32,203 bases of DNA, taken from NCBI RefSeq assembly GCF_030682515.1, contig NZ_JAUXOD010000110.1:1-32203 (forward strand), given 5' to 3'. Positions within the stretch are counted from its first letter, which is position 1, and every line of letters starts with the position of its first letter. Shown here in pieces: positions 13,791-32,203 of the stretch. Under the pieces are notes generated by a model. It was given only the letters and a program-made list of their open reading frames with translations, was not told the origin of the DNA and ran no database searches. The stretch comes from Hoeflea sp. (lineage in GTDB: Bacteria; Pseudomonadota; Alphaproteobacteria; Rhizobiales; Rhizobiaceae). Both the position numbers and the translations under genes were made by a program.

Positions 13791-14546
13791 TCAGGGCAGA
13801 CCCAGATAGAGCGGTTCGAAGCCTGCGATGAACAGGGTGAAGAACGACCGGGAGCCGAAGTAGAACAGGATCAGACCGCCGAACAGGATGAACGGAATGG
13901 AGATGAAGTAGACCGGGATCTGCGGGGAGAGCTTGTTGACCATGCCGATCGAGAGGTTGAAGATCAGGCCGTAGGCAAGGAAGGGGCTCGCCAGCCGGAG
14001 CGCCAGCATGAAGGCGCTGGCCAGCGTGTCGGTGAGCGTCATCAGCGCCATCCGCGGATCGAACTCCGTGCCGAGCGGCATGAAGGTGTAGGAGCGCACC
14101 AGCGACGCGATCACCAGATGATGAAAGTCGCTCAGGAACAGCACGAACAGTGCGGTGAACGAGATCAGCGCCGTGATGTGGCCTTCGGCTTCATTTTCGA
14201 TGAGCCCTCCCCCGGGGGCGGCGTTGAAGCCGATCGCCATGGAGATGCCGGTGCCGGCGAACTGCAGCGCCAGCACGATGTAGCGGGCGATCAGTCCCAT
14301 GGTGACGCCGATCAGCATCTCGGTGGCCACCAGCCGGATGTAGAGGCTGCCGCCGCCCTGGACCTGGGGATAGATCGAGTCCCACATGACGGGCAGCAGG
14401 GCCATCGACACGGCGACCGCCAGCATCAGGCGGATCTGCACCGGAACGCGGAAACTGGAAAAGCCCGGAAGCACCATGATGCAGCTGCCGATGCGGCAGA
14501 AGGCCGCGAACAGGGCCAGGACGGTGCCTTCCGGGTCGCCGATCAC
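13791..14546 (-). CDS. fliR: Flagellar type III export protein FliR
   Basis: A 251-residue polytopic inner-membrane protein of the flagellar export gate. It shows about six hydrophobic helices and conserved FliR stretches: [20 protein letters not shown] (conserved R-x-P motif), [20 protein letters not shown] (E-x-x-I/L-G-x-x-x-G), [17 protein letters not shown], and [20 protein letters not shown] near the end. FliR assembles with FliP and FliQ into the gate pore above FlhA. The ATG at 14546 overlaps the flhA stop as ATGA, so it is translationally coupled to flhA. Normal length (about 250). Confidence 0.95.
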
Positions 14547-16630
14547 GAGATCGCGCCCAGGAGCTTGACCTCGATGCCCTTGGCGATCTCGACATGGGAC
14601 AGGACCGGCAGGGTCGCGAAGATGCGCTCGACGATCATGCGGACATAGGGGCGGGAATCGGGCGACGTCACCAGCACGAAGGGCACGCCCTTGTCCATGT
14701 GCTCGCGGACCACCTTGGTGGCGTCCTCGGAGAATTCCTCGAGCATCCGCGGATCGATGTCGAACTCGACGACCTCGCCCTTGGGGTCGCGCTTGAGCGC
14801 CTGGTGGAAGGCCAGGTCCCAGCGGTTGCCGAGTCTCAACACATTGAGCTGGCCGTTGCGGGCAATGTCGCCGCAGAGCTGCTGGGCCATGCGGATGCGC
14901 ACATGCTCGACGATCTGCTCGGTCTTGCGCACATGCGGCGCCAGTTCCGCCACCGCCTCGAGGATGAGGTGCAGGTTGCGGATCGAGACGCGTTCGGCGA
15001 GCAGCAGCTTGAGCACCGCCTGGAAGCCGGAATAGGACATGTGCGAGGTGCAGATCTCGTCGGCGAGCTTGCGGTATTCGGGATCGAGCCGGTCGATCAG
15101 GATCTTCATGTCCTTGTAGGACAGCAGTTGCGGCAGGTTGTTGCGGATCACCTCGGAGAGGTGGGTCAGCACCACCGAGACATTGTCGATGGGCTGGAAG
15201 CCCTCGCGCTTCAGGTCCTCGGCGAAGTTCTCGGGCACCGAAAGCGCGGGCAGGCCGAAGGCGGGCTCGCGGATCTCGTCGCCCGGAAGCGTGGGGCGGC
15301 GCGAGCCCGACAGCACCACCATCAGTTCGCCTACCCGGAGATCATTGGCCGCCACCGTGGTGCCGTGAATGCGGATCTGGTAGCTCTTGTCCTTGATCGA
15401 GATGTCGTCGGTGACCTTGATCTCCGGCACGACGAAGCCGAACTGGGTGGCGAACTTCTTGCGCATCTTGGCGACGCGGAACGCCAGTTCCTCGTGGCTG
15501 CCCAAGAGCTTGGTGGCCACCTGCTTGCCGAGCACAAGTTCGATCTCGGCGGTCTTGAGGATGGACTTGACCGAATCCTTCTCCTTGTCCTTTTCCTCCT
15601 GGGCGCTGCGGTGGACCTCCTGCGCCTCGGCGCGGGCCTTGCGGTCGCGCTGGCGCGGGATCAGCCAGCTGCCGAAGGCCATGATCGAAGCCAGGGCCAC
15701 GAAGGGCAGGAATGGCAGGCCGGGCATGATGGCGAGCAGGAACAGCAGTCCCGAGGCCGCGAACAGGGCGCGCGGGTAGCCCGCCAGCTGATCGATCACC
15801 GCCTCGTCGGTAGTGCCGAGCTGGCCGCCGCGCGACACCAGCAGACCGGCGGCGAGCGACACGATCAGGGCCGGGATCTGGCTGACCAGTCCGTCGCCGA
15901 CCGAGAGGCGCACGAAGACATCCGCCGCCTCGCCGATTTCCATGCCGTGGCGGGCGTAGCCGATGATGACGCCGCCGAACATGTTGATGGCGGTGATCAG
16001 CAGGCCGGCGATGGCGTCGCCGCGGACGAATTTCGAGGCGCCGTCCATGGAGCCGAAGAACGAGCTTTCCATCTCCAGTTCACGGCGCCGGTCGTGGGCC
16101 TGCTTTTCATCGATCATGCCGGCCGACAGATCGGCGTCGATGGCCATCTGCTTGCCGGGGATCGAATCGAGCGTGAAGCGCGCGCCAACCTCGGCGATGC
16201 GGGTCGCGCCCTTGGTGATGACGATGAAATTGACCGTGACCAGGATGAGGAAGACGATGACGCCGATGACGAAATCGCCCGACATCACCATCTGGGAGAA
16301 GCCGCCGATCACCTGCCCGGCTGCCTCGGGGCCAAGATGGCCTTCCGAGAGGATGACGCGCGTGGTGGCGATATTGAGCGACAGCCGCATCATGGTGGCG
16401 ATCAGCAGGATGGTCGGGAAGGAGGAGAAGTCGAGCGGCCGCTTGATCCACAGCGCCACCATCAGGATCAGCACCGAGAAGGCGATGGAAAAGGCCAGGC
16501 CGATATCGATGAGAAAGGCGGGGATGGGCAGGAACAGGATCGAAAGGATGACGACGATGCCGAAGGCAAAGCCCATGTCCTTTCCCTGGAAACTCGTCTT
16601 CTGGATCGCCAGCGCCTGCGGATCGGCCAT
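14543..16630 (-). CDS. flhA: Flagellar export protein FlhA
   Basis: A 695-residue export-gate protein, a typical rhizobial length, from the ATG at 16630. A GTG at 16651 would add only seven residues and has no better ribosome site. The N-terminal half has eight membrane helices. The FHIPEP signature region reads [20 protein letters not shown], followed by [14 protein letters not shown] in the cytoplasmic FHIPEP loop. The C-terminal half is the soluble domain that docks export substrates and chaperones (ending [16 protein letters not shown]). FlhA uses proton motive force with the FliH/I/J ATPase to drive export of rod, hook and filament proteins. fliR follows in ATGA overlap. A gap of 317 bp separates flhA from fliQ, so it may have its own promoter. 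Confidence 0.97.
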
Positions 16631-16947
16631 TACTGCGGAGCTCCGGATCACGGCGCCGGCATCATGCCAGCGCGATTTCTGGAACGACCCTACGGCGCGA
16701 AGCTTGCGCCAAGGTGGCAGGGCAGGAATTTTCGTCCCGTGGGGGTATGGCGACGAGCCTGGCCAAACCGTGCGGGGCGGGACTCACTGCGGACCGGGCA
16801 TGAGCGCCGCTTGACAGTTCAATCCCGGATCCAGGCCAAACGGCTCCGCCCGTGCGGCAGCGACCCGTTCCGCTAGGGCCGCGAGCGGATCCCTGTCTCC
16901 TGGCGCTACAGGGGCCTTTGTCCGTTTGATAAAACGCACGGCAAGGA
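16631..16947 (-). other. Intergenic region between fliQ and flhA (317 bp)
   Basis: This gap breaks an otherwise tight operon. It contains short inverted repeats, including CCCTGT (16891-16896) with ACAGGG (16908-16913) and CCGCT/AGCGG just beside it, but no T-run on the minus strand, so termination after fliQ is unproven. A separate flhA promoter is likely here, though I see no convincing -35/-10 pair. An ORF across it (16662-16982) has no protein-like features. Confidence 0.5.
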
Positions 16948-17269: not shown

Positions 17270-17674
17270 CTACCAGACCGTCACGCCCGAGGACACGGCG
17301 AGTTTCTGGCCGTCGGCCAGCACCGCGGTCAGGCCGCTGTCGCTCACCACGACCTGCTTGATGACACCGCTGATGGTGCCGTCGGCGCTGGTCAGGGAGC
17401 GGCCGATCATGGTGCCGGCCTGGGTGAGGTTCGAGGATTTAATGAGCGATTCCAGGTTCTTGTTGGTGATGATGGTCTGCTCGACCTGGCTGAAGGTTGC
17501 AAGCTGCGCGATCTGCGCCGTCGCATCCATCGGATCGGTCGGATCCTGGCTCTTCATCTGCTGCACCAGCAGCCTGAGGAAGGTATCGTAATCCAGGTTC
17601 ATCTTGCTGCTTGCCTTGTCCGCAGCCGAATTGCTGGTGGCGGCTGCGGCGGTGTTGACTCCATTCACGACCAT
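17270..17674 (-). CDS. flgD: Flagellar hook-assembly scaffold FlgD (short rhizobial form)
   Basis: A 134-residue protein with the FlgD N-terminal core [20 protein letters not shown] and [20 protein letters not shown] (residues about 29-70), followed by a short beta region ([20 protein letters not shown]). The Ig-like/Tudor C-terminal half of enterobacterial FlgD (about 230 residues) is largely missing, as is usual in rhizobia. FlgD caps the growing hook. Its ATG at 17674 lies inside the end of flbT (10-bp overlap), which suggests coupled translation. Confidence 0.93.
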
Positions 17675-18114
17675 GGTGCGAGCTCCCTGCGGATCTGTTC
17701 GATGGTGCCGGCGGGCATCGCCGACGTGTTGAGGATCTGTTCCTCGATGGGATAGAGCGCGCGGATCGCCTTGAGCGCCTCGAAGGCGCGGCCCTGGGTG
17801 ACCATGCCGTCAATGTGCTTGAGCTCGGCCAGCACCTCGTCATTCTTGAAGCAGGTGAGAAGCATGACCACCGACTTGCGGAACATGACCATGGCCTGAT
17901 CGGCGCCCTCGGGATTGATCAGCATCATCTGGACGATGAAATAGAGCTGCCGGAGCGGCGTCGTCGCCTGTTCGGGCTGGAGCACGTGGTTCTCGAGCAG
18001 GAACGTGACGTCGTTCAAGAACTCCAGCGCCACTTTCCGGTCCACCCGGAGGACGGCGCCGTTGATGAAGATGCGTTCGCCTGCCTTGAGGGAAATACGC
18101 AGTGAACTTTTCAT
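17665..18114 (-). CDS. flbT: Flagellin mRNA regulator FlbT
   Basis: A 149-residue cytoplasmic protein from the ATG at 18114. An in-frame extension to 18210 is Gln/His-rich and not family-like. Hallmarks are [20 protein letters not shown] at the N-terminus, [20 protein letters not shown] in the middle and a C-terminus ending [10 protein letters not shown]. In Caulobacter, FlbT binds the 5' leader of flagellin mRNA and controls its stability and translation; in Brucella, FlbT and FlaF act oppositely on flagellin output. The ATG overlaps the flaF stop as ATGA. Its expected RNA targets would be the conserved flagellin leaders at 30.0-30.1 and 31.3-31.4 kb. Confidence 0.94.
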
Positions 18115-18458
18115 TTCAGCCCGTCCCTGATGATGGTGGAAATGTCGATGATGCCCTGGAAATTGTCCGATTTGCGCTGCCGGATGCGCTCGGCTTCCTT
18201 GATGATCCATATCCCGATCGAGATGAGATTGGCCCGAAGCTCCTGGGACAGCTGATTTTCAGGGGACGCCAGGTCCTCGACGAAGCGCACCCAGAGGCGG
18301 CTGACGAAATAGACGGCTTCAATGGCGTCGCGGGATTCGAGTCCACTGCTCTTGGCTGCGGTCAGCAGGGCGATGGAGTGATTGATCGCCTCTCGCTCGC
18401 GTTCGCGCGCTTCGGCAACCCCATCCTCCTGCACATCCGCATATGAAAACTGGTACAT
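18111..18458 (-). CDS. flaF: Flagellar biosynthesis regulator FlaF
   Basis: A 115-residue soluble helical protein with the FlaF hallmarks of an early MYQFSYADV segment, [19 protein letters not shown] and [20 protein letters not shown], then [20 protein letters not shown]. FlaF is needed for flagellin production or secretion in alphaproteobacteria and works with FlbT, whose gene follows with an ATGA overlap. The ATG at 18458 has AAGGG about 8 bases upstream. It lies 50 bp after flgL. Length and sequence are normal for rhizobia. Confidence 0.94.
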
Positions 18459-22375: not shown

Positions 22376-22440
22376 AACCTGTTTCCGGCTTGTCCGGAAA
22401 GCCCGACGGAGTGACGTCATTCAGCCCGTCGGGACAGGTT
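22376..22440 (-). repeat. Three-arm inverted-repeat structure between rem and flgE
   Basis: An outer 7-bp stem pairs AACCTGT (22376-22382) with ACAGGTT (22434-22440). Inside it are a 7-bp hairpin TTTCCGG (22382-22388) / CCGGAAA (22394-22400) with a 5-nt loop, and an 8-bp hairpin CCCGACGG (22402-22409) / CCGTCGGG (22426-22433) with a 16-nt loop. Together they would fold into a three-way junction in the transcript. It begins at the last bases of rem. It may be a terminator or processing site after rem; there is no good T-run. Confidence 0.6.
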
Positions 22441-29064: not shown

Positions 29065-30042
29065 TTACTGCTGGAAGAGAGACAGGATGTTTTGCGAGTT
29101 GGTATTGGCGATGGAGAGAGACTGGATGCCCAGCTGCTGCTGGGTCTGCAGCGCCTTCAGCCTGGTCGATTCCTCGTTCATGTCCGCGTCGACCAGACGG
29201 CCAACACCCTTGTCGATGGAATCCATCAGATTGGCGACGAAATCCTCCTGCATCGAGACGCGCTTGTTGATCGCACCCAGGTTGGAGGCCGCATCGGTCA
29301 TCTGGTTGAGCATGGCGTCAACCACCCGGATCATGTCGTCGACCTCGGCATCCGTCGTGGTGGCCGTCAGCTGGATTGCCGTGCCGCTCGCCGGGGTGCC
29401 GGTGGTGGAGCCGGTGTCGATCAGGAAATAGTTGCGTGCCGTGGTGGTGGTCGCATCGGGATCGAGCGCATTGGCGTCGATGTCCTTGGTCAGGATGCCA
29501 AGGCTTTCGTTGTTGGCGCCAATCATCGTCAGGCTGGTGACGTTGATATCGAGCGTGGTGATCGTCACCAGGCCGTTGACGTCGCGGTTGAAGCCGCCGA
29601 CGACCGATTTGGTCCCCGCCGCAGCGGTGGAGCCATTGTTGAGCCAATTCTCACCGGAGAACGAGGCTGATTCGGAAATCGACCGCAGCTGGTTCTTGAG
29701 CTCCGTGAGTTCCTTGTCGATCTTGGTCTTGTCGACGCCAGGCTCGCGGGCCGCAACCAGCTTTGCCTTGATTTCGGAGATCACGTCGATCGAACTGTTC
29801 ATGGCGGTGTAGGCGATATCGACCTTGGCGGCGCCGAGGCCGAGAGCGTCCTTGACGGTGGACAGCGCCTTGTTGTCGGATCGCATCGTTGTCGCGATCG
29901 ACCAGTAGGCCGCATTGTCGCCCGCATTCTCCACGCGGAATCCCGAGGAGACGCGTGCCTGTGTGGTTTCCAGATCGGAGTTGATCGACCTGAGGGTCTG
30001 CAGTGCCGCCATGGCGGCGATGTTGGTCATAATGCTGGTCAT
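29065..30042 (-). CDS. Flagellin (first complete copy)
   Basis: A 325-residue flagellin. The conserved N-terminal helices (TSIMTNIAAMAALQTLRSIN) and C-terminal helix (STRLKALQTQQQLGIQSLSI, ending LSLFQQ) form the filament core; the short central region (about 150-250) is the variable surface. This copy is the most distinct of the three, differing in the variable region and in its tail (FQQ instead of FR). Start: ATG at 30042, with a GGGG site 8 bases upstream that can pair with the conserved leader element. It is the flagellin nearest motB, the position occupied by one of the four fla paralogs in Sinorhizobium. Exported by the FlhA/FliR/FliQ gate. Confidence 0.96.
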   Translation of the reverse strand: MTSIMTNIAAMAALQTLRSINSDLETTQARVSSGFRVENAGDNAAYWSIATTMRSDNKALSTVKDALGLGAAKVDIAYTAMNSSIDVISEIKAKLVAAREPGVDKTKIDKELTELKNQLRSISESASFSGENWLNNGSTAAAGTKSVVGGFNRDVNGLVTITTLDINVTSLTMIGANNESLGILTKDIDANALDPDATTTTARNYFLIDTGSTTGTPASGTAIQLTATTTDAEVDDMIRVVDAMLNQMTDAASNLGAINKRVSMQEDFVANLMDSIDKGVGRLVDADMNEESTRLKALQTQQQLGIQSLSIANTNSQNILSLFQQ

Positions 30043-30066
30043 AAGAAATGCCCCATAAATTGCCCA

Positions 30067-30112
30067 GGGACATACCGGCCGCTCTTCCGGTTACGGTGAA
30101 GTTGCATCATGC
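30067..30112 (-). promoter_or_regulatory. Conserved flagellin leader element (first copy)
   Basis: Minus-strand order: GCATGATGC (30104-30112), CCGG-N8-CCGG hairpin (30075-30090), then CCGGTATGTCCC (30067-30078). The same blocks occur at the same offsets upstream of the second flagellin. TGTCCC can pair with GGGGCA that contains the Shine-Dalgarno (30049-30054). Lies 25-70 bases upstream of the ATG. Candidate FlbT-type translation control site. Confidence 0.65.
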
Positions 30113-30174
30113 AGCCCGGAGCATTTCATTGCCCATGCGTTCCGGTTCACCGTTGGTAACTAAGGGGTAAACGT

Positions 30175-30196
30175 TTATGGTTAATCAACAGTTAAC
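30175..30196 (-). promoter_or_regulatory. GTTAA-N8-TAACCATAA box upstream of the first flagellin
   Basis: Minus strand reads GTTAA, eight bases, TAACCATAA. The left edge lies 133 bp from the start codon and 108 bp from the conserved leader 12-mer, exactly as in the second flagellin. TTAAC half-sites are 11 bp apart, as in OmpR-family sites. Candidate activator site (Rem); inferred. Confidence 0.5.
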
Positions 30197-30232
30197 TCAA
30201 GCCCTTGTTCGTGATTAGGCGCGACGAGGGGC

Positions 30233-30277
30233 AAAAAAAGAATGCGAAAAGGCCGCATCGTTGCCGATGCGGCCTTT
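30233..30277 (-). terminator. Rho-independent terminator after the second flagellin
   Basis: A perfect 12-bp stem (AAAGGCCGCATC at 30248-30259 with GATGCGGCCTTT at 30266-30277) and 6-nt loop, followed on the minus strand by TTTT and a further run of seven T (30233-30239). It lies 49 bp after the flagellin stop. Confidence 0.9.
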
Positions 30278-30325
30278 GTGAGGTGGATCCTGAACCGCGC
30301 GCGGCGGTTCGGGGCCTGCTCGTCC

Positions 30326-31300
30326 TTAACGGAAGAGCGACAGGATGTTTTCCGAGTTCGAGTTGGCGATCGACAGCGACTGGATGCCCAGCTGCTGCTG
30401 GGTCTGCAGGGCCTTGAGCCTGGTCGATTCCTCGTTCATGTCCGCATCCACAAGACGGCCGACGCCGCTGTCGATGGAATCCATGAGGTTGGAGACGAAA
30501 TCGTCCTGCATCGAGATGCGCTTGTTGACGGCGCCGAGATTGGAGGCGGCATCGGTCATCTGGGTGAGGATCGAGTCGACCACCCGGATCATGTCGTCGA
30601 CTTCAGCGTCCGTCGTCGTGCCGGTCAGCGCGATCGCGGTGCCCGAGGCCTGGGTGCCGGTCGTCGAACCAGTGTCGATCAGGAAGTAATCCCGCGCCGT
30701 CGTCGTGGTGGCATTGGGATCAAGCACGTTGGCGTCGATATCCTTGGTCAGGATGCCGAGGCTTTCGTTGGCCTTGCCGATCAGCGTGGTGGAGGTGGTG
30801 TTCACTGCGAGCGTGGTCAGCGAGACCATGCCGGAGGAGTCACGGTTGAAACCACCGACGATTTCCTTGGTGCCGGACGCAGCCGTCGAGGTGTTGTTGA
30901 GCCAGTTCTCACCGGAGAACGAGGCCGATTCCGAAATCGACACGAGCTGGTTCTTGAGCTCGGTCAGTTCCTTGTCGATCTTGGTCTTGTCGACGCCGGG
31001 TTCGCGGGCGGCAACCAGCTTTGCCTTGATTTCGGACACCACGTCGATGGCCGATTCCATACCGGTGTAGGCGACGTCCACCTTGGCGGCGCCGAGGCCG
31101 AGAGCGTCCTGCACCGTGCCGAGCGCCTTGTTGTCGGAGCGCATCGTGGTTGCGATCGACCAATAGGCCGAGTTGTCGGCGGCAGTATCAACCTTGTAAC
31201 CCGAAGAAATACGGTTCTGGGTCATCTCCATGTCGGAGTTGATCGAACGAAGTGTCTGCAACGCAGCCATCGCCGATGCATTGGTCATGATGCTTGTCAT
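30326..31300 (-). CDS. Flagellin (second complete copy)
   Basis: A 324-residue flagellin with the standard N-terminal (TSIMTNASAMAALQTLRSIN) and C-terminal (TRLKALQTQQQLGIQSLSIA, ending NILSLFR) core. Over the 205 residues that can be compared it is about 90% identical to the third, window-edge copy and clearly less similar to the first. Start: ATG at 31300, with AAAGGGA about 7 bases upstream; this site can be covered by the leader stem described separately. It has its own leader, box and terminator, so it is probably monocistronic. Differences from the neighbours cluster in the exposed central region and at a few core-adjacent residues. Confidence 0.96.
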   Translation of the reverse strand: MTSIMTNASAMAALQTLRSINSDMEMTQNRISSGYKVDTAADNSAYWSIATTMRSDNKALGTVQDALGLGAAKVDVAYTGMESAIDVVSEIKAKLVAAREPGVDKTKIDKELTELKNQLVSISESASFSGENWLNNTSTAASGTKEIVGGFNRDSSGMVSLTTLAVNTTSTTLIGKANESLGILTKDIDANVLDPNATTTTARDYFLIDTGSTTGTQASGTAIALTGTTTDAEVDDMIRVVDSILTQMTDAASNLGAVNKRISMQDDFVSNLMDSIDSGVGRLVDADMNEESTRLKALQTQQQLGIQSLSIANSNSENILSLFR

Positions 31301-31303
31301 TAT

Positions 31304-31376
31304 GGTGTCCCTTTAGACATGAAATTACACGGGACATACCGGGTTATCTACCGGCAACGACGGCAAAGCATCATGC
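31304..31376 (-). promoter_or_regulatory. Conserved flagellin leader element with predicted Shine-Dalgarno sequestration (second copy)
   Basis: Order on the minus strand: GCATGATGC (31368-31376), CCGG-N8-CCGG (31339-31354) and CCGGTATGTCCC (31331-31342). GGT-AT-GTCCC of the last block can pair with GGGACACC (31304-31311), which overlaps the AAAGGGA ribosome site: 8 pairs with a 2-nt bulge. Block offsets equal those of the first flagellin. Confidence 0.65.
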
Positions 31377-31438
31377 TCGTCGTCCCCGGAATCTTCCGAT
31401 CGACGACCCGTCATTTCTTGAAAACCATTAATGACTGA

Positions 31439-31460
31439 TTATGGTTACGGAAGATTTAAC
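31439..31460 (-). promoter_or_regulatory. GTTAA-N8-TAACCATAA box upstream of the second flagellin
   Basis: Minus strand GTTAA, eight bases, TAACCATAA; 139 bp from the start codon and exactly 108 bp from the leader 12-mer, as in the first flagellin although the intervening sequence differs. It lies 35 bp past the terminator of the third flagellin. Candidate activator binding site; inferred. Confidence 0.5.
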
Positions 31461-31494
31461 CGGCGAGGCAAGTTTTTAATTTTCCGCGGGGGTC

Positions 31495-31526
31495 AAAAAA
31501 AACGCCGGGGATTGCTCCCCGGCGTT
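31495..31526 (-). terminator. Rho-independent terminator after the third flagellin
   Basis: AACGCCGGGG (31501-31510) pairs perfectly with CCCCGGCGTT (31517-31526), plus one A-T pair, leaving a 4-nt loop; on the minus strand it ends in eight T (31495-31502). It begins 38 bp past the stop at 31565. Confidence 0.93.
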
Positions 31527-31564
31527 CGGTGTTGGTCATCCCCTGGGTCGGGGTGAAGCGCCGC

Positions 31565-32203
31565 TTAACGGAACAGCGACAGGATGTTCTGCGAGCTGGA
31601 GTTGGCGATCGACAGCGACTGGATGCCCAGCTGCTGCTGGGTCTGCAGGGCCTTCAGTCGTGTCGACTCTTCGTTCATGTCCGCATCCACCAGCCGGCCG
31701 ACACCCTTGTCGACGGAGTCCATCAACTTGGCGACGAAGTCGTCCTGCATGGAAATGCGCTTGTTGACGGCGCCGAGATTGGAGGCGGCATCGGTCATCT
31801 GGGTGAGGATCGAGTCGACCACCCGGATCATGTCGTCAACCTCGGAGTCGGTCGTCGTGCCGGTCAGCGCGATCGCGGTACCCGAGGACTGAGTGCCGGT
31901 GGTCGAACCGGTGTCGATCAGGTAGTAATCCCGCGTTGTCGTGGTGGTAGCATTGGGATCGAGGGCATTGGCGTCGATATCCTTGGTCAGGATGCCGAGG
32001 CTTTCGTCGGCCTTGCCGATCAGCGTGGTCGAGGAGGCGTTGATGCCGAGCGTGGTCAGCGAGACCATGCCGGAGGCGTCACGGTTGAAACCACCGACGA
32101 TTTCCTTGGTGCCGGCGGCCGTCGTCGAGGTGTTGTTGAGCCAGTTCTCACCGGAGAACGAGGCCGATTCCGAAATCGACACGAGCTGGTTCTTGAGCTC
32201 GGT
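31565..32203 (-). CDS. Flagellin (third copy, 5' end beyond the window)
   Basis: A partial flagellin: 212 C-terminal residues are present, beginning TELKNQLVSISESASFSGEN and ending NILSLFR. The start codon and about 110 N-terminal residues lie beyond 32203; the frame stays open to the edge. An apparent GTG start near 32182 is only an internal Val. It is about 90% identical to the second flagellin in this part (roughly 18-19 differences over 205 residues), consistent with recent duplication or gene conversion. A strong terminator follows. Confidence 0.95.
   Translation of the reverse strand, partial: TELKNQLVSISESASFSGENWLNNTSTTAAGTKEIVGGFNRDASGMVSLTTLGINASSTTLIGKADESLGILTKDIDANALDPNATTTTTRDYYLIDTGSTTGTQSSGTAIALTGTTTDSEVDDMIRVVDSILTQMTDAASNLGAVNKRISMQDDFVAKLMDSVDKGVGRLVDADMNEESTRLKALQTQQQLGIQSLSIANSSSQNILSLFR

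Follow-up and report, generated by a model that had tools for sequence, protein, structure and literature searches.

The window, by which we mean the whole stretch of 32,203 nucleotides analyzed here, comes from a Hoeflea sp. genome of 4.67 Mb in 144 contigs. Toward its end are two flagellin genes in tandem on the minus strand, with starts at 30042 and 31300, which are paralogues sharing 84% identity over 324 amino acids. Their upstream regions are referred to as leaders A and B, and the helices that we assign to them as P0 to P3. The features, all on the minus strand, are as follows.

29065..30042, minus: flagellin gene A, 325 aa
30116..30145, minus: P0 hairpin of leader A, CCGGA...TCCGG, the least certain helix
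30103..30113, minus: P1 hairpin of leader A, TGC-ATGAT-GCA, outer pair T-A (A-T in leader B)
30104-30112, minus: GCATGATGC 9-mer of leader A
30074..30091, minus: P2 hairpin of leader A, ACCGG-N8-CCGGT, drawn shifted in the minimum-energy fold
30067-30078, minus: CCGGTATGTCCC 12-mer of leader A
30067..30072, minus: P3 5' arm of leader A, anti-Shine-Dalgarno TGTCCC
30049..30054, minus: P3 3' arm of leader A, Shine-Dalgarno region GGGGCA
30326..31300, minus: flagellin gene B, 324 aa
31379..31407, minus: P0 hairpin of leader B, GTCGTC...GACGAC, the least certain helix
31367..31377, minus: P1 hairpin of leader B, AGC-ATGAT-GCT
31368-31376, minus: GCATGATGC 9-mer of leader B
31338..31355, minus: P2 hairpin of leader B, GCCGG-N8-CCGGT
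31331-31342, minus: CCGGTATGTCCC 12-mer of leader B
31331..31336, minus: P3 5' arm of leader B, anti-Shine-Dalgarno TGTCCC
31306..31311, minus: P3 3' arm of leader B, Shine-Dalgarno region GGGACA
17668..18114, minus: FlbT, type B, above the NCBIfam NF001995 cut-off, candidate reader of the leaders
18111..18458, minus: FlaF, adjoining FlbT

A preliminary description of this DNA had noted the same ordered blocks in both leaders, namely, GCATGATGC, CCGG-N8-CCGG, and CCGGTATGTCCC, and all of them were found again; the offset between the 9-mer and the 12-mer, given there as 37 bp, is 34 from start to start in both leaders. The 12-mer has no further copy in the window, and the 9-mer has one, at 16659. 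What had been missed is that the 9-mer is a small hairpin (P1) in itself and that a further stem (P0) lies upstream of it. The proposed pairing of TGTCCC with the Shine-Dalgarno region of leader A holds, with six pairs including one U-G, and a flanking A-U pair extends it to seven in the folds; the minimum-energy folds of this leader shift P2 to ACCG/CGGT around CCG/CGG. For leader B, the eight pairs with a 2-nt bulge described previously appear only in a 60-nt fold, in which the P2 stem is lost; folds of 80 and 110 nt retain P2 and give a P3 of six pairs. The differing Shine-Dalgarno partners had been read as a hint of selection on structure. Because G-U wobble accommodates the change between them, the window pair alone is no proof of such selection, and the support comes from leaders across the order. 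Elsewhere in this genome, the leader recurs at a third flagellin N terminus, on contig C36 (C36:75121-75211), and the element was not found upstream of a diverged flagellin on contig C74 (L140).

Conserved architecture of the flagellin leader

To describe the leader, we compiled 172 flagellin starts from the window genome, 17 genomes of the same genus, and 43 of the 48 further genomes of the same family in which a match was present, the flagellin regions taken per genome being the best-scoring clusters and not all matches. The P1 hairpin, NGC-AUGAN-GCN', was present by pattern with its two inner pairs at 153 of the 172 starts and with all three pairs at 134, and P1 together with P2 (CCGG..CCGG) at 140. 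Shuffled upstream sequences contained a three-pair P1 in 1.5% of cases, and conservation over the 172 starts relative to this control excludes a chance origin of the blocks. Among the 19 starts at which P1 was absent by pattern, 3 had the loop ATCAG instead of ATGAN. The anti-Shine-Dalgarno TGTCCC, which forms P3 with the Shine-Dalgarno region, was found within the last 70 nt upstream of 119 starts.

Covariation was assessed in an alignment of 96 leaders (A1), for which 97 of the 130 leaders having P1 and P2 by a stricter pattern were chosen to limit the weight of the genus, and one misplaced leader (L124) was dropped. That CATGANG and CCGG..CCGG do not vary in A1 is a product of this selection, so that only the other columns are evidence. 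(i) The outer P1 pair 3-13 is formed in 87 of the 96 leaders (64 GC, 8 AU, 6 GU, 6 UA, and 3 CG), as against a mean of 65.4 (sd 2.5, maximum 74) in shuffles, and pair 4-12 is formed in all 96 (91 GC, 4 AU, and 1 GU). (ii) The outer P2 pair is formed in 66 of 91 leaders (shuffle mean, 48.1). (iii) Three of the six P3 pairs (57-98, 58-97, and 59-96) exceed the shuffles. The other three (54-101, 55-100, and 56-99) showed no excess in A1, so part of the conservation seen in the P3 3' arm is that of the Shine-Dalgarno sequence. (iv) The structure as a whole is 92.8% paired, a value that drops to 32 to 50% when the partners are slid, and RNAalifold, with no structure supplied, returned the same helices P1, P2, and P3.

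P0, directly upstream of P1, has little sequence conservation and is the least certain helix. Its Watson-Crick runs averaged 4.90 in 147 leaders, compared with 3.92 (sd 0.067) for swapped arms; when each locus contributed a single leader (n = 52), the values were 4.37 and 3.86 (sd 0.118, maximum 4.23 in 300). Some unpaired positions in the P1 loop and in the P1-P2 spacer are conserved, the P1-P2 spacing is nearly constant, the loop base N of P1 is free to vary, and the sequence between the blocks diverges among leaders. Taken together, sequence comparison indicates that the shared blocks belong to a structured and conserved 5' leader with the order P0-P1-P2-P3, in which the succession of the three conserved hairpins, P1 (with its AUGAN loop), P2, and P3, is fixed and often preceded by the variable P0.

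A long-range pairing of the 9-mer with flagellin codons 3 to 6, suggested by minimum-energy folds, was rejected, as its mean run in 147 leaders (5.81) was no longer than that with swapped partners (5.85) and N varies freely. With 102 leaders aligned on P1, no column between -120 and -1 exceeded 0.42 bit, and hence no fixed promoter motif was detected upstream of P1. We assume that P0 and P1 are part of the mRNA; the available portions of PMC3616915 and PMC10469942 contained no mapped flagellin transcription start that we could find.

Pairing over the Shine-Dalgarno sequence across the order

At the level of the order, we collected 60 flagellin regions, 40 with a start assigned by pattern (a few of them wrong calls) and 20 without. 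Those 40 and 69 candidate starts from other order loci made 109, of which 31 had no ATGT anchor, and 64 rows were left after removal of duplicates. The mean P3 helix run in these rows was 6.12, versus 5.40 in 200 arm swaps (sd 0.10, maximum 5.70); the element is present in some of the ATGT-less leaders left out (e.g., L437 and L476), and the 64 rows contain a few internal start codons, which lower the real mean. The two arms change together across families, with the combinations TGTCCC/GGGACA, TGTCCTC/GGGGACA, TGTCTTTC/GAAAGACG, and GTTTCC/GGAAAC, and P2 has the variant CATGTCGG..CCGACATG in L236 and L241. There is thus a helix conserved over the Shine-Dalgarno sequence with compensatory changes, two hallmarks of a translational leader that sequesters this site, and selection on RNA structure and on Shine-Dalgarno pairing is well supported by the aligned leaders.

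Folding predictions gave a mean pairing probability of the Shine-Dalgarno core of 0.82 in 139 leaders. In silico replacement of the P3 5' arm lowered it from 0.86 to 0.66 in 111 leaders and from 0.98 to 0.89 in leader A, and barely altered it in leader B (from 0.52 to 0.49); folding energy alone would predict a weak effect of P3 in the latter. The site is usually covered by P3, with some exceptions (L084, L115, L117, and L204-L206) that have lost the anti-Shine-Dalgarno TGTCCC and kept P1-P2. The Shine-Dalgarno regions of L204-L206, L115, and L117, such as AAGGTAC, resemble the P2 3' arm CCGGTATG, and from its sequence the P2 5' arm could compete for the Shine-Dalgarno site in these leaders.

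Distribution of the leader

The covariance search proposed in the preliminary description retrieved the element across Rhizobiales flagellin leaders. Two models were used, R1, which covers 85 positions, and R2, which covers P1-P2. In the order sample of 199 genomes, R1 matched 50 at an E value of ≤0.1 and 37 at ≤1e-3, the latter spanning 11 GTDB families. At this stricter threshold, 59 of 65 matches end 0 to 40 nt upstream of a flagellin domain; of the remaining 6, five (L226-L230) are upstream of chemoreceptor-like genes, and one, G160:C1:1982114, is within a flagellin cluster. In the class sample (240 genomes, including the window genome), the best match outside the window genome had an E value of 0.002, which is at chance level, and of 14 class loci with a weak match, 10 gave a site, none with a flagellin-like downstream frame. 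A pattern scan of named genomes added 141 matches among those listed. Of these, 69 precede a flagellin-like start, assigned by pattern, by 22 to 46 nt, and the genomes with the leader include Agrobacterium pusense, Ensifer adhaerens, Sinorhizobium glycinis, Bradyrhizobium, Roseibium, and Pannonibacter. Those of the other 72 listed matches that carry a title span many phyla and look like chance, with a few from the same order (e.g., L306, L308, and L343). The window leaders resemble those of the named Agrobacterium and Ensifer genomes.

P1-P2 outside flagellin leaders

P1-P2 also occurs without P3, upstream of the chemoreceptor-like genes of L226-L228. In L226 (G000:C36:47543-47600), L227, L228, L263, L273, and L274, P1-P2 and a P0-like stem lie approximately 120 to 195 nt before the likely start codon of a globin-coupled chemoreceptor gene; the gene in the window genome (L226) encodes a protoglobin-MCP protein according to Pfam, and those of L227 and L228 are similar by eye. 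Sites of the L226 type probably mark the start of a chemotaxis operon, which contains a gene that we take to be icpA-like. R2 picked up an additional site in at least 13 of 18 genomes of the genus, with some 28 kb separating it from the closest flagellin leader of the same contig; the gene behind it was inspected in L226, L263, L273, and L274. At L229 and L230, in two genomes of family f2, P1-P2 with at most a weak P3 is found about 78 nt before genes that, judged by eye, are chemoreceptor-like and of the membrane type, 17 to 20 kb from the flagellins.

Three further observations concern related sequences. (i) The window contains at 16642-16670 (minus strand) an GGCATGATGCC hairpin without clear P2 or P3, just before a 702-aa ORF at 14543-16651 (R2 E value, 0.0025). 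(ii) A weak P1-P2-like match at 22383-22424 (minus strand) is located upstream of flgE (R2 E value, 0.067). (iii) In four genomes of the genus (L484, L488, L493, and L495), a conserved block GCATGATGCGGG..GCCGG..CCCGGCA precedes a 186-aa ORF by about 160 nt.

Association with FlbT

The preliminary description had correctly placed FlbT in the window, and we used NCBIfam NF001995 to classify its homologues. A gap in the scores separates a type B with at least 109 bits (42 genomes) from other copies with at most 98.7 bits. The window FlbT, with 170 bits, is of type B, and so is the FlbT of Caulobacter vibrioides, included as a control; the window genome thus has an FlbT of the experimentally studied type. 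R1 matched at an E value of ≤1e-3 in 36 of the 42 type-B genomes but in only 1 of the 157 others (Fisher p of about 4e-32, which ignores kinship, the genomes not being phylogenetically independent). The one exception, G188, is 86% complete, and FlbT was not found in it. Among the type-B genomes without such a match (G139, G175, G195, G234, G258, and G271), inspection revealed the element in G139, G175, and G234 (E values, 0.001 to 0.005) and in G258 (L451-L453); it was not seen in the one leader read in G271 (L461). Seven genomes contain both FlbT types. In six of these (G110, G194, G218, G224, G250, and G255) the element is 12 to 21 kb from the type-B gene, and the seventh, G271, had no R1 match.

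According to the available parts of the literature, the flagellin 5' UTR of Caulobacter is bound by FlbT (PMC3930126, PMC4347634), which represses there (PMC3930126, PMC4347634) and activates in Brucella and Bradyrhizobium (PMC4347634, PMC9812332, PMC8429497). In B. diazoefficiens, FlbT is described to induce translationally the two lateral flagellins, LafA1 and LafA2 (PMC8429497), and the two R1 matches in each of the Bradyrhizobium-like genomes G110 and G218 fit this pair. As far as its text was available, a 2015 review leaves the FlbT motif blank and calls the mechanism unresolved, noting the opposite effects in Caulobacter and Brucella (PMC4347634). The circumstantial evidence of distribution makes type-B FlbT the likely reader of the leader. 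The association would be explained just as well if the lateral-type flagellar system were inherited as a linked whole; lateral and subpolar systems are distinguished in the part of PMC6406911 available.

A CsrA-like fold for FlbT, suggested by an N-terminal likeness noted by eye, was not supported (hhalign probabilities of 1.7 and 4.3). Searches against Pfam at an E value of 10 gave no CsrA, and Sm_like appeared for 3 of 19 sequences (best E value, 0.016). A profile search of the PDB gave nothing meaningful, and Foldseek with a single-sequence model of FlbT (pLDDT 75, pTM 0.68, with a low N-terminal part) gave no match better than an E value of 0.24.

DISCUSSION

Our preferred reading, to which we assign a probability of roughly 60%, is that the element acts at the level of translation, as a structured 5' leader of flagellin mRNAs in which P3 closes the ribosome site and of which type-B FlbT is the likely reader. 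We infer translational control, and an OFF state formed by P3, from the helix over the Shine-Dalgarno sequence. In the mechanism proposed, P3 would keep ribosomes off the flagellin mRNA until a trans-acting factor reads the conserved P1-P2 module and opens P3 (or, alternatively, holds it shut). This factor would be type-B FlbT, whose gene accompanies the flagellar system concerned; in rhizobia, FlbT would act mainly as an activator. As the P1-P2 modules upstream of chemoreceptor genes mostly lack P3, a number of late motility mRNAs may be marked by this one reader, and P3 may have been added for strict translational control of flagellins. A broader version, which we put forward tentatively and would not yet expect to hold, is that lateral-type systems have a late-motility regulon whose RNA operator is P1-P2. 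Type-B FlbT, perhaps held by a flagellin-like partner until export begins, would recognize flagellin and chemotaxis mRNAs by their AUGAN hairpin, P3 would make flagellin translation dependent on FlbT, and the whole would be an assembly checkpoint at the RNA level that replaces sigma28/FlgM.

Four other explanations were weighed. (i) The same Shine-Dalgarno-sequestering leader may have another reader, which could be a small molecule, an Hfq-associated small RNA, or a different RNA-binding protein. The conserved unpaired positions in the P1 loop and the spacer could serve any reader, and in Agrobacterium an hfq mutation is reported, in the part of the article available, to decrease 13 motility proteins (PMC4201532). 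The close match between the distribution of the leader and that of type-B FlbT, and the reported action of FlbT on flagellin 5' UTRs, speak against this explanation, which we consider rather unlikely. (ii) It is improbable that the hairpins mainly shield the mRNA from decay as a 5' stabilizer, Shine-Dalgarno pairing being a side effect. Such a function would suit the P1-P2 and P0-like stems located far upstream of the globin-chemoreceptor starts without P3 (L226-L228, L263, L273, and L274), but stability alone would not need P3 arms that covary across families. (iii) P1 might be a DNA element, i.e., a promoter or operator dyad of late motility genes, and P3 alone act in the mRNA. P1 is indeed near-palindromic and found upstream of flagellins and chemoreceptor-like genes alike; nevertheless, its outer pairs change together (GC, AU, UA, and CG) with no conservation of half-sites, N varies freely, and the spacing to P2 is nearly fixed, which leaves this explanation very doubtful. 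(iv) That the leader is a functionless copy from a recent duplication, as the tandem paralogues of the window might suggest, is refuted by its occurrence in 11 GTDB families at an E value of ≤1e-3 while the sequence between the blocks diverges.

The preferred reading of an FlbT-read translational leader has several consequences. The leader is probably a control point for the timing of filament protein synthesis and would be a candidate for the RNA target that FlbT has long lacked. With two helices, a loop, and a further helix that covers the Shine-Dalgarno sequence, a conserved candidate target of about 85 nt makes the FlbT question directly testable. It would also add a structured RNA family present in at least 11 families of a large order; an Rfam 15 scan of the window gave no family at its threshold. 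We found no description of this flagellin leader in the open-access literature, as far as its text was available; subscription papers may hold one.

Of the known systems, flg-Rhizobiales RNA (RF01736) is likewise a structured cis-regulatory RNA of Rhizobiales with three stem-loops and linked to flagellar genes, according to the accessible parts of PMC2864571 and PMC3765529. Identity with the window leader was rejected, as RF01736 had no window match at its gathering score (55 bits) and none at 29900-31700 at an E value of 10; it exceeded the cut-off in none of 61 family genomes. Its order loci differ also in their genes, since 27 of 30 have nearby, by pattern, a basal-body-type start MENxxLIGLSRQ (which we take to be that of FlgF) and not a flagellin, and 28 of 30 have no GCATGANGC within 320 nt. 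The RF01736 locus of the Bradyrhizobium-like G110 belongs to the other flagellar system, some 21 kb away from the type-A FlbT. Matches to RF01736 at L150-L179 are mostly under the gathering score, and many are located behind a TGGCACG-type sequence, presumably sigma54-like; the Rfam family may be too narrow.

In ribosomal-protein leaders and other translational operators that sequester the Shine-Dalgarno sequence, a helix hides this site and upstream conserved hairpins serve a protein. They differ from the flagellin leader in sequence, genes, and presumed reader, and none was matched at threshold. CsrA-FliW resembles the proposed system in that an RNA-binding protein controls translation of flagellin mRNA. 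A CsrA target has GGA in a hairpin loop, whereas the common P1 loop AUGAN (ATGAN at 153 of the 172 starts, ATCAG at 3) has no GGA and the P2 and P3 loops vary, and FlbT has no significant similarity to CsrA. FlaF-FlbT has been called a possible analogue of CsrA-FliW in the part of PMC4894983 available. A parallel in presumed reader is the Caulobacter flagellin (fljK) 5' UTR, also a flagellin leader under posttranscriptional control with a type-B FlbT, as reported in the available part of PMC3930126. Caulobacter is outside the order and was compared through the FlbT score and reviews, R1 being at chance level in the class sample outside the window genome. Its FlbT is reported as a repressor, whereas the rhizobial reader proposed here would be mainly an activator of flagellin translation.
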